Below are positions 28,565 through 30,496 of a stretch of 64,000 bases of DNA, in pieces. The notes under the pieces are model-generated. The model was not told where the DNA came from. It saw only the letters and a program-made list of their open reading frames with translations, and searched no databases. Both the position numbers and the translations under genes were made by a program. Each line of letters begins with the position of its first letter. The first letter of the stretch is position 1. This DNA comes from Adhaeribacter arboris (GTDB lineage: Bacteria > Bacteroidota > Bacteroidia > Cytophagales > Hymenobacteraceae), in the NCBI RefSeq assembly GCF_003023845.1, contig NZ_PYFT01000001.1:4712001-4776000 (forward strand). Reading direction: 5' to 3'.

Positions 28565-28857
28565 TGTTTTTACAAAAATAAAATTACTCGGATGTTGCTA
28601 CCCATGTACGTAGATTTTAGCTAGTCAGGTTGATTTACCTTTACTCGAAATATGGGTAATAGTCGTAAAGTATGGGTACTATAAATAACAAGCAGGTGCT
28701 TTTTACTTGCCAATAATGCTTTCATGCAGAATAAATCCTTATTCCAAATAAATAGCCGTTTTCAAATAGCGGGTAAAAAAATAACTTGTTTATTCAAAAT
28801 AATAGGTAAATTTAAGGGAGTGCCTTTAAAAATAATCAAGGATAATCTTGTTTTATT

Positions 28858-28886
28858 TTGAAATTAGAAAATAAGGTTTATATTTG
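28858..28886 (+). promoter_or_regulatory. Bacteroidota-type promoter of the rtcB leader
   Basis: TTG at 28858-28860, an 18-base spacer, then TATATTTG at 28879-28886. The latter matches TAnnTTTG exactly. Predicted transcription start is about 28892, some 20 bases before the leader ORF. Confidence 0.7.
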
Positions 28887-28911
28887 TTGCAAGTATTTCA
28901 ATCAAGAAGAA

Positions 28912-28986
28912 ATGATTTATTCAACCGTCCTGCCTATTGTTAACCAAAATTGGAAGCTAGACCAACTGGTTCGGGGCGTGTGTTGA
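28912..28986 (+). CDS. Putative 24-codon leader peptide upstream of rtcB
   Basis: A short ORF runs from ATG 28912 to TGA 28984-28986. A purine-rich aagaagaa stretch directly before the ATG could serve as ribosome site. It encodes 24 residues beginning MIYSTVLP and ending LVRGVC. Codons 3, 11, 13 and 17 are Tyr, Asn, Asn and Asp, and codon 14 is Trp. It lies between a consensus promoter and an intrinsic terminator, in front of rtcB. Codons 19-22 contain ggttcggg (28968-28975), which repeats the distal arm of the terminator and can pair with its proximal arm. I infer a regulatory leader peptide, not a functional protein. It could instead be a non-translated part of a small RNA. Confidence 0.5.
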   Translation: MIYSTVLPIVNQNWKLDQLVRGVC

Positions 28987-29040
28987 TATTTTTATACCCA
29001 GCATAACAGAAAACCCGAACCGTAAACGTTCGGGTTTTTT
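28968..29040 (+). promoter_or_regulatory. Candidate antiterminator/terminator switch upstream of rtcB
   Basis: Antiterminator helix: ggttcggg (28968-28975) with cccgaacc (29014-29021), 8 bp. It is mutually exclusive with the terminator helix aaacccgaac (29011-29020) with gttcgggttt (29028-29037), 10 bp, followed by Ts. A ribosome at the leader stop codon would cover 28968-28975 and allow the terminator to form. A ribosome stalled around codons 11-13 would leave it free. The geometry is that of a translation-coupled attenuator. This is inference from sequence only. Confidence 0.5.
29011..29040 (+). terminator. Intrinsic terminator between leader ORF and rtcB
   Basis: A 10-bp perfect stem (29011-29020/29028-29037) with a 7-base loop and a run of Ts. 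It ends 31 bp before the rtcB ATG, so transcription of rtcB from the upstream promoter needs readthrough. Confidence 0.85.
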
Positions 29041-29071
29041 ATTTAGTAGTAGTTTGTAATTTAATCGTATA

Positions 29072-30496
29072 ATGAGTACGGAAGTTTATGCGCCCAACAT
29101 GGCCAGTAAAAAGTTAACGGGACATGACCTGATGGAGTTAGGTTTTCCCGCCGGCAGAAGTATTAGCTTAGCCATTAGCTTAATGCAGAAACACTATGCC
29201 CATCTGTCGCCCGCAGCACAGTTAGATTTACTCAAGCAAGTGCTGCTGGCACCGGATAAGTTTGTTACCCACACGGTACTAGGCGAAATTCTGGCGGCGC
29301 TAACAAAACAAAATAATTCTACCGGAGCCATACACCTGCACGAGCAGCCCAAGCCATACGCCATTTTTGGCGATAATTTGATTGAAACCGATGCCAAAGA
29401 GCAGATGGATTTAGCTATGCGCTTGCCGGTAACGGTAAACGGCGCCCTGATGCCCGATACACACAAAGGCCACGGTTTACCTATCGGCGGTGTTCTCGCC
29501 ACAGATGGGGCAGTTATTCCGTACGCGGTAGGAATGGATATTGCCTGCCGGATGCACTTTACTTTATACAATGTGCCGGCTACTATACTGGAAAAACAAA
29601 AGTACCAACTAAAACAAGTTTTACAGGACCAGACCCGGTTTGGCGTAAATACGGGTTTTGAAAAACCGCAGGCGCACGAGGTGTTTGACCGGCCGGAGTT
29701 TAATCAGATAAAAGTATTGCAGCAACTAAAAACCCGGGCAGCATACCAGTTAGGCAGCTCGGGTACAGGTAACCACTTCGTAGAGTTTGGGGCGGTAACA
29801 TTGGATACCAACGACAACGCTTTTAACTTACCCGCCGGGGAGTACGTGGGAATCTTATCGCATTCGGGAGCCCGCAGTTTAGGCAAAAACATTGCGGCGC
29901 ATTACACCCAAATTGCTATGGATACTTGTCGGCTGCCGGTAGAAGCAAAATACTTAGCCTGGTTAAATCTGCAAACTCAGGCGGGTCAGGAATACTGGCA
30001 GGCCATGCAAGTAGCTAACGACTACGCCTTAGCTTGCCATGAGCGCATTCACGAACGCTTAAGTGTCAGTTTCGGGGAAGAGCCGGTAGCTCGTTTTGAT
30101 AACCCGCATAATTTTGCCTGGAAAGAGCAATGCCAGGGGCAAGAAGTAATTGTGCACCGCAAAGGAGCGGCCCGGGCAACTGCTGATAACTTTAATGTTA
30201 TTCCGGGTTCCATGACGCAGCCCGGCTACCTGGTACGGGGATTAGGGAACGTAGCAGCTCTTTATTCATCATCGCACGGCGCCGGACGGGCCATGTCCGC
30301 GAAAAAGGCCGCGCAGGTTTTATATCAAACCGAAATGAATGGCTTAATTAAGGCATTCGGCATAGAACTAATTGGCGGCAGTTTGCAGGAATCGCCGGTG
30401 GCGTATAAAAACATGCATTACGTGATGGAAAGCCAGCAGCAGCAAGTAGAAATTTTAGGCAAGTTTACTCCAAAATTAGTTCGGATGGACCGGTAG
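29072..30496 (+). CDS. rtcB: RtcB family RNA-splicing/repair ligase
   Basis: A 474-residue cytoplasmic protein. RtcB joins RNA 2',3'-cyclic phosphate or 3'-phosphate ends to 5'-OH ends using GTP and Mn2+. All signature motifs are present: D129-T-H131-K-G-H-G; metal-binding D156-I-A-C159; GTGN234-H235; H264 in LSHSGARSLG; H362 in VHRKGAA; and the guanylylated His402 in YSSSHGAGR. The protein is intact. In-frame ATG 29072 is used; a second ATG at 29099 is possible. No archease, PrfH or RtcR gene is adjacent, so this is a stand-alone repair ligase. Upstream lies the promoter/leader/terminator arrangement described separately, which suggests control by attenuation. Confidence 0.95.
   Translation: MSTEVYAPNMASKKLTGHDLMELGFPAGRSISLAISLMQKHYAHLSPAAQLDLLKQVLLAPDKFVTHTVLGEILAALTKQNNSTGAIHLHEQPKPYAIFGDNLIETDAKEQMDLAMRLPVTVNGALMPDTHKGHGLPIGGVLATDGAVIPYAVGMDIACRMHFTLYNVPATILEKQKYQLKQVLQDQTRFGVNTGFEKPQAHEVFDRPEFNQIKVLQQLKTRAAYQLGSSGTGNHFVEFGAVTLDTNDNAFNLPAGEYVGILSHSGARSLGKNIAAHYTQIAMDTCRLPVEAKYLAWLNLQTQAGQEYWQAMQVANDYALACHERIHERLSVSFGEEPVARFDNPHNFAWKEQCQGQEVIVHRKGAARATADNFNVIPGSMTQPGYLVRGLGNVAALYSSSHGAGRAMSAKKAAQVLYQTEMNGLIKAFGIELIGGSLQESPVAYKNMHYVMESQQQQVEILGKFTPKLVRMDR

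Follow-up and report, generated by a model that had tools for sequence, protein, structure and literature searches.

A candidate ribosome-mediated transcription attenuator upstream of rtcB in Adhaeribacter arboris and related leaders before RNA-repair genes in the Bacteroidota

The genome of Adhaeribacter arboris (assembly GCF_003023845.1) comprises 7.2 Mb in two contigs. Here, we analyse a stretch of 64,000 nucleotides (nt) of contig NZ_PYFT01000001.1 (positions 4,712,001 to 4,776,000 of the forward strand), in the following called the window, and in particular the region upstream of the RNA ligase gene rtcB. This gene follows an aldo/keto reductase gene on the opposite strand and is itself followed by a pfkB-type kinase gene. 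A short open reading frame (ORF; ATG at 28912, TGA at 28984-28986), whose 24 codons encode MIYSTVLPIVNQNWKLDQLVRGVC, lies between a putative promoter and an intrinsic terminator (Table 1). The terminator hairpin occupies 29010-29038, its T-run extends to 29040, and 31 bp separate it from the rtcB ATG at 29072; since the reductase gene is located on the other strand, the terminator is not the end of that gene. An antiterminator overlaps the leader ORF and is mutually exclusive with the terminator. Direct reading confirmed all coordinates given in a first-pass annotation of this DNA, namely the ORF, ggttcggg at 28968-28975, its complement cccgaacc at 29014-29021, the terminator and the rtcB start. 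The TTTTG and TATATTTG boxes correspond to what we take to be the Bacteroidota promoter consensus, and no sigma-70-type match was found at 28856-28886. A scan of the window with Rfam 15 yielded 0 matches at the gathering score, so a known riboswitch or T-box at the rtcB leader was rejected. As set out below, the element is very probably a ribosome-mediated transcription attenuator of rtcB.

Table 1. Coordinates of the features at the rtcB locus in the window.
Feature	Position	Strand	Basis
Putative promoter (TTTTG 28856-28860, TATATTTG box 28879-28886)	28856..28886	+	sequence
Leader ORF, 24 codons, stop TGA	28912..28986	+	24 codons and free of indels in four genomes
Region 1, early and middle codons, possible pairing with region 2	28920..28947	+	duplex of -16.9 kcal/mol, leader fold; weak
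Region 2, antiterminator arm in the last leader codons, includes ggttcggg 28968-28975	28966..28986	+	duplex with 29004-29023
Region 3, pairs with region 2 and contains the terminator 5' arm	29004..29023	+	CCCGAAC invariant in four genomes
Intrinsic terminator hairpin and T-run (regions 3:4)	29010..29040	+	sequence, fold, four-genome conservation
rtcB, RNA ligase of 474 amino acids (aa)	29072..30496	+	Pfam PF01139, 239 bits

The proposed pairing of ggttcggg with cccgaacc is real and stronger than expected by chance. The duplex of the late leader with the terminator 5' arm reaches -21.7 kcal/mol, compared with -9.0 +/- 2.3 kcal/mol in dinucleotide shuffles of the upstream stretch, of which 1 in 2000 matched or exceeded it. 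Among 25 terminator-like sites on both strands of the window, the rtcB leader has the strongest pairing of this type, and of the 12 strongest sites no other has its pairing segment at the end of a short ORF. A simple terminator scan did not list a terminator at 29010-29040, in our view because the stem runs into the T-run. The protector hairpin suggested earlier (aacca with tggtt) does fall inside a larger leader hairpin at 28921-28986; this fold, however, is not unusually stable (z = -1.2 in the window; -0.5, -0.1 and -0.9 in three further Adhaeribacter species).

Orthologues of rtcB with more than 80% identity were found in four of the eight genus genomes searched: the window genome (G000) and G003, G004 and G006, whose proteins are 88%, 83% and 82% identical to that of the window. 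All four carry a leader of 24 codons at the same place and without indels, with codons 10-16 reading [IV]NQNWKL and the TGA followed by TATTTTT; the TATATTTG box is kept, TATATTTGTTGCAA is identical, and the terminator stem is the same with different loops. Two outcomes that would speak against the attenuator according to the first-pass annotation were thus not observed: neither the short ORF nor the alternative helix is lost in the orthologues, and by eye no promoter-like box shared by the four genomes is present in the short gap between terminator and rtcB. The duplexes of leader and terminator in the three orthologous loci amount to -18.8, -18.5 and -17.2 kcal/mol, equalled by 1, 3 and 2 of 2000 shuffles, respectively. 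In G006, GGTCCGGG replaces GGTTCGGG, which leaves one mismatch with its own terminator arm, and G004 lacks one end pair. Change rates of 0.25/0.17/0.35 at the three codon positions show a third-position excess in the Adhaeribacter leaders. An exact search with the leader pattern, which distant forms would escape, gave one match in each of four out of 150 family genomes, every one before rtcB. The element was not found at the loci L006 (G007), L007, L009 and L010 of the other four genus genomes, where rtcB is about 50% identical, and our attenuator finder gave none for a second rtcB-family gene (403 aa) in the window genome and its orthologues in G003, G004 and G006.

Beyond the genus, 177 rtcB loci were collected, of which 174 remained after removal of L036 (= L006), L115 (= L071) and L160 (= L078); L123, L129 and L135, which duplicate L029, L015 and L017, were excluded as well. 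The sample is not random: 80 loci are the best of 348 from one search, many are from Tenacibaculum or Hymenobacter, and nearly all are from Bacteroidota, L056 (Rickettsiales) and L084 (Thalassobius), both metagenome bins, being titled otherwise. Upstream DNA was at most 4 kb per locus (median 1.5 kb; at least 3.9 kb at 68 loci). A hit was defined as an intrinsic terminator upstream on the coding strand, a duplex of at most -13 kcal/mol between the preceding 100 nt and the terminator 5' arm, and an ORF of 8-60 codons that starts with ATG and stops within 15 nt of the pairing segment. By this definition, 75 of 152 sense terminators are attenuator-like; they are distributed over 68 of the 174 distinct loci, with one hit at 61 and two at 7. 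On the antisense strand of the same stretches, 3 of 68 terminators qualify. This control was used instead of a first one (37 qualifying among 242 other terminators), which was rejected since it was contaminated by real leaders farther upstream in rtcB operons. Some of the 75 hits may be due to chance, e.g., L138 at the energy limit.

The first-pass annotation's reading of an attenuator with a leader ORF is therefore supported both by the orthologues and by the recurrence of the same architecture in other families. The leader peptides differ by lineage, with MFNYQLNKNIQREPGSFYCLLRDFLHNK in Flavobacteriaceae, MLKQKETYRFELLNSDIRFMPWFFS in an order-level relative and MFKMQHTYIKLVGRS in a class-level relative. 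In Roseivirga and Marivirga, the leaders are located about 3 kb upstream, often two in tandem, before a slipin-TPR-rtcB operon. Tandem leader-terminators upstream of rtcB were read at approximately positions 1144 and 1342 of L041, 902 and 1099 of L042, 891 and 1085 of L046, 948 and 1148 of L048 and 962 and 1148 of L053; the slipin-TPR-rtcB order was read in L041, L042 and L046, and the ORF of the second tandem leader is ambiguous in several loci. In some Tenacibaculum genomes, leaders precede a small gene located before rtcB. L097 holds a 231-aa protein (..YVKIPKGAYRIRFKR..; 1590-2285) between attenuator and rtcB that has no match in Pfam or NCBIfam, and shorter relatives of it occur in Tenacibaculum L062 and L076.

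Compensatory changes, which had been proposed as a check, are present in other families with the same architecture. They were followed in an alignment of 39 of the 75 distinct hits, all Flavobacteriaceae-type, from which the near-duplicates L070, L071/L115, L082 and L087 and the additional upstream leaders of L064 and L094 were left out. The latter two (L064:3390-3520; about 633 nt before rtcB in L094) are a second, different leader-terminator, MNIFKTHKTDA... and MNLFLTHKTDA..., upstream of the rtcB leader; no gene that obviously belongs to it is located between the two. In the 39 leaders, region 2 (CTTCG-x-GAC) and region 3 (GTCCGAAG) covary, and the antiterminator variants are paired as GAC/GTC, GAT/ATC, GGC/GCC and GGT/ACC. 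One covarying pair is AU in 27 leaders, GC in 11 and unpaired in 1; the next is CG in 28, UA in 8 and UG in 3, in a pair table with five rows re-registered by hand (L094, L097 and L152 by a gap, L151 and L153 by moving a bulge). When the alignment is left unaltered, 96.2% of cells are paired and 17 carry changes on both sides, whereas shuffles yield 5.2 such cells and slid controls 0-3; further pair types number 5 there, not above the shuffles (5.9). The C-to-T changes in region 2 fall at third codon positions (GAC/GAT, GGC/GGT) and leave the peptide unchanged. One of the two covarying positions is thus a silent third codon position, and therefore the RNA is under selection.

The segment immediately before the leader ATG also pairs with region 2 and covaries in these leaders. 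The mean duplex energy of regions 2 and 3 is -11.96 kcal/mol for cognate against -9.59 kcal/mol for swapped partners (z = -7.9), and that of regions 1 and 2 is -9.70 against -7.46 kcal/mol (z = -8.7); 0 of 5000 shuffles were as good in either case, scores that kinship can inflate. The variants CGAAGTA, CGAAGAAA, CAAAGCA, CTGAAGTA and CCGAAGTA were found with matching partners. Gap runs in the ORF columns are multiples of three in 151 cases with one exception (L076), against 27 multiples and 106 others in the spacer; most derive from few shared insertions and hence represent few independent events. The exception is a one-base deletion in the leader at L076:3126-3212 that alters the end of the peptide and keeps the pairing RNA, a hint that the RNA may matter more than the peptide. 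A mid-leader hairpin is common (p <= 0.05 in 29 of 68 leaders, mean z -1.61; 20 of 43 Flavobacteriaceae-type leaders, near-duplicates included, mean z -1.81) but codons 3-18 show none in the four Adhaeribacter leaders (z from +0.36 to +1.39). Altogether, the attenuator is well supported, both in its RNA architecture and as a family.

Where a ribosome would have to stand was modelled by folding transcripts cut just before region 4, with a footprint of approximately 14 nt on either side of the P-site codon masked. In the window, regions 2 and 3 pair with a probability of 0.60 without a ribosome and 0.64 with a ribosome at codons 1-15, which drops to 0.02 at codon 16 and to 0 from codon 17 on. 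Averaged over 74 leaders, the values are 0.82 without a ribosome, 0.82 at codons 1-4, 0.77 at 5-12, 0.74 at 13-16 and 0.09 over the last five codons; in G004, a ribosome at codons 13-14 is also predicted to hide the antiterminator. This is in agreement with the earlier assumption that a late-leader ribosome would cover 28968-28975. Of the stall site proposed at codons 11-17, codons up to 15 indeed leave the antiterminator free; the modelled switch point, however, is codon 16, and stalls anywhere from 1 to 15 would suffice. Since a late ribosome abolishes the antiterminator in the folding model, it would be completion of the leader that permits termination.

We infer the following order of events from leader translation to the on and off states. 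RNA polymerase would initiate at the putative promoter around 28880, followed by a ribosome that translates the 24 leader codons. Once this ribosome had advanced into the final third of the leader, it would cover region 2, so that region 3 could pair with region 4 and transcription would end before rtcB; a ribosome delayed earlier would leave region 2 open for pairing with region 3, and rtcB would be transcribed. In the Flavobacteriaceae-type leaders, the start-codon segment may pair with region 2 as well, so that a leader whose start carries no ribosome would lean towards the off state. Amino-acid operon attenuators of the trp and his type likewise consist of a promoter, a leader ORF and mutually exclusive antiterminator and terminator. 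The candidate presented here would work in the trp manner; it differs in having no single-amino-acid tract and in its RNA-repair target.

The first-pass annotation knew of no described attenuator of this kind for rtcB, which is incomplete in view of PA5471.1, the leader before the RtcB-like gene armZ of Pseudomonas aeruginosa (PMC12057347, PMC13041342). PA5471.1 was proposed to control armZ, which adjoins prfH, by attenuation under ribosome-targeting drugs (PMC12057347). Loss of a tRNA end-repair enzyme turns on the PA5471.1-armZ system: a cca mutant has a larger amount of ribosome-bound PA5471.1 RNA and raised armZ, dependent on Gln3 and Phe4 (PMC13041342). As in the window, there is a leader, a terminator (proposed there as regions 3:4), proposed attenuation and an RtcB-family gene in PA5471.1/armZ (PA5471)-prfH (PA5470), which is turned on by stalled ribosomes or by unrepaired tRNA ends (PMC12057347, PMC13041342). 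The likeness concerns the architecture, leader sequences aside, and the system belongs to another phylum; ArmZ is an RtcB-like protein that relieves MexZ repression of an efflux pump. Unlike armZ, the window rtcB has no prfH neighbour, the pfkB kinase gene being next, and prfH adjoins rtcB in some relatives. Functionally, the window element is closest to PA5471.1-armZ, as a lone-rtcB member without prfH. Among the matches listed, PA5471.1 is the single case of leader attenuation before an RtcB-like gene, and no description of the Bacteroidota leader family was found in the literature covered, mostly non-subscription papers; beyond PA5471.1, the Bacteroidota case adds covariation evidence and a multi-gene family. 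In Salmonella, RtcR senses tRNA fragments in the RtcR-sigma54 control of rtcBA (PMC7790460), and in Anabaena TrcR represses rtcB, with relief under translation stress (PMC10272220). Both turn rtcB on with RNA damage or translation stress, but are protein regulators at promoters and not RNA switches. The table of TrcR-affected genes also names slipin and TIGR02452 genes (PMC10272220), which are found near rtcB in some of the loci surveyed here.

Which signal the leader might read was approached by codon usage. From 75 leaders (one a duplicate), five peptides with weak or competing ORFs were dropped, three were trimmed to an inner start, and 38 non-redundant clusters remained. The specific stalling at Asn, Gln, Trp and Lys codons put forward in the first-pass annotation is not borne out, as the frequencies of H, N, Y, K and W do not exceed those of shuffled sequence. 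In codons 2-12, Q (8.1 vs 4.5%, z = 3.5) and F (7.2 vs 4.0%, z = 3.6) are modestly enriched; the combined classes HNYQ (z = 0.7) and HNYD (z = -1.1) are not. Anticodon nucleases usually cut the tRNAs for His, Asn, Tyr, Gln and Lys, and the leaders by eye seemed strikingly rich in such codons, an idea that failed in composition-matched shuffles and was dropped. It thus appears rather unlikely that the element is codon-specific in the sense that cleavage or lack of charging of the matching tRNAs causes a stall at Asn-Gln-Asn-Trp-Lys, which switches on tRNA repair. NQNWKL is invariant in the four Adhaeribacter leaders, and the residues enriched are those implicated in PA5471.1, a coincidence that may be chance; on the other hand, early codons vary freely between related leaders, and twenty scores were calculated over a codon range of our own choice, those of Q and F being two of them. 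Neither the window leader nor the compared leaders have a run of one amino acid's codons, except in L028 (G051), where a leader about 240-134 nt before rtcB encodes MHLHLHHQFETLLNPRRTTMLELSHISPRMTERR, with a His-rich start and a terminator, and resembles a his-operon leader. As no amino acid tract is shared across lineages, the signal is more probably a general failure or slowness of translation, e.g., from damaged tRNA or ribosomes or ribosome-blocking drugs, and judged by the sequences a sensor of this type is likelier than one for Asn or Gln. Ribosome-mediated attenuators of the bmrCD type, which control drug-resistance genes, reportedly respond to a general translation block as well; they differ in their targets.

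Three further explanations are less probable still. In TnaC-type leaders, the nascent peptide arrests the ribosome, and conserved C-terminal residues might do so here in response to a ligand: in Adhaeribacter, codons 11-24 change less than 1-10, and three of four peptides end in VC-stop, the fourth in MC-stop. Yet a ribosome held at the leader end would hide region 2 and so favour termination, according to the folding model, and the Flavobacteriaceae C-termini (LLRDF, LRGF) track the pairing segment rather than a shared peptide, which makes such arrest very improbable. Nearly as little speaks for a constitutive terminator, in which case the leader transcript would be an independent small RNA or encode a small protein, and rtcB would depend on fixed readthrough. 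The strong terminator would fit this improbable arrangement, but the covarying antiterminator and start-codon segment in 39 relatives would have no role in it. Finally, short inverted repeats are common and 3 of 68 antisense terminators qualify, so the arm might have been repeated by chance within a spurious ORF. Given that one shuffle in 2000 is as good and that the repeat recurs in orthologues and other lineages, we regard this as refuted and hardly credible.

Several points weigh against ribosome-mediated attenuation itself. The window copy is known from four sequences only, one of them with an antiterminator mismatch, and 106 of the 174 loci lack the element by the criteria used, with short upstream DNA for many of them. 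These criteria were fixed after the first examples, the loci are clustered by kinship, and the shuffle tests are uncorrected for it. RNAalifold alone reports just the terminator on the leader alignment. In the Flavobacteriaceae sets, where the helices overlap leader codons, codon-position rates of 0.46/0.49/0.44 and 0.47/0.52/0.47 give no ordinary coding signature, as is expected if RNA pairing rules and equally if the leader peptide is irrelevant. Moreover, the equilibrium model forms the antiterminator without a ribosome (0.60 in the window), and therefore equilibrium folding does not predict the off state of an untranslated leader.

Leaders of this type are also found before other genes. 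A covariance model (R1) built from the 39 leaders was searched in 249 Flavobacteriaceae genomes and matched in 61 of them at E <= 0.01. Sixteen of the 17 matches with at least 78 bits are located upstream of rtcB, 13 of these having been in the model. We inspected 18 other matches, i.e., every one of at least 50.5 bits and one of two at 49.7. In 14 of them, a leader-terminator recognised by eye is followed by TPR, PrfH, RtcB-like or slipin genes; the same type precedes a GNAT-like gene (L202, G484, named by eye) and a PcfJ-like gene (L215, G615), and L210 and L213 have terminators only. The gene names rest on single examples (PrfH, TIGR03072, 218 bits, over the cut-off; Band_7, 94 bits; PcfJ, 54 bits), TPR (L205) and the RtcB-like fragment (L208) being below the Pfam cut-offs, and other members were matched to them by eye. 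By sequence, the leader family is linked with RNA-repair genes.

PrfH over the cut-off occurs in five of 99 class genomes, always adjoining rtcB, and not in the window genome. Three of these PrfH-rtcB loci (L116, L121, L131) are hits, L184 narrowly misses the energy limit, and no attenuator was found at the fifth (G245). On an Escherichia coli plasmid, the rtcB2-prfH operon carries, 120 nt ahead of rtcB2, a 15-codon ORF (MTNPLSMTLCRPFQD) that is preceded by a strong AGGAGG (L255:2191-2238); GCAGAC/GTCTGC and CCAGG/CCTGG are able to pair across its end, and the finder gave no intrinsic terminator. An Aureibacter plasmid with rtcB-prfH carries a 10-codon ORF (MLVYHSNIAL) after AGGAGG, followed by an inverted repeat, TTTCAGAC/GTCTGAAA (L256:3345-3377).

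Other features were seen before rtcB at some surveyed loci. A WYL-type operator was considered as an alternative control and rejected: the pattern is present at 4 of 175 loci (L036 counted), none with an attenuator, which is too few. A direct repeat, CTGCGCA-AAAAnn-CTGCGCA, is located 61-85 nt before the rtcB match in L012, L016, L037 and L101, again without an attenuator; next to this repeat, the opposite strand of L016 and L101 by eye resembles the start of a WYL-type regulator. Within the window's family, five loci of one genus (g5; L014, L015, L017, L018, L019) show stretches resembling pieces of tRNA before rtcB; ARAGORN gave no tRNA gene on 12 loci including these five. They are possibly Y-RNA-like, a reading we base on the TROVE/Ro60 gene upstream of rtcB in Hymenobacter (L089).

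A further, tentative thought is that the leader senses broken ribosomes directly, a damaged ribosome at the start codon being the signal of a Bacteroidota-wide RNA-repair regulon; we consider this possible rather than likely. All 39 aligned leaders have a covarying partner of region 2 within the 14 nt before the start codon, the area that was searched. PrfH of E. coli was reported to act on a ribosome cut at the decoding centre with fMet-tRNA bound (PMC9223846). A cut ribosome at the start codon would then cover region 1 and free region 2 for the antiterminator, which would switch on rtcB, prfH and the partners that rescue the ribosome.

A leader that reads translation would provide, for the Bacteroidota, an answer to how bacteria without RtcR sense RNA damage. 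It would also tie armZ of Pseudomonas to a wider theme of leader attenuators before RtcB-family genes in two phyla. Moreover, a shared control element would group the TPR, slipin, 231-aa and PcfJ-like proteins with RNA repair.

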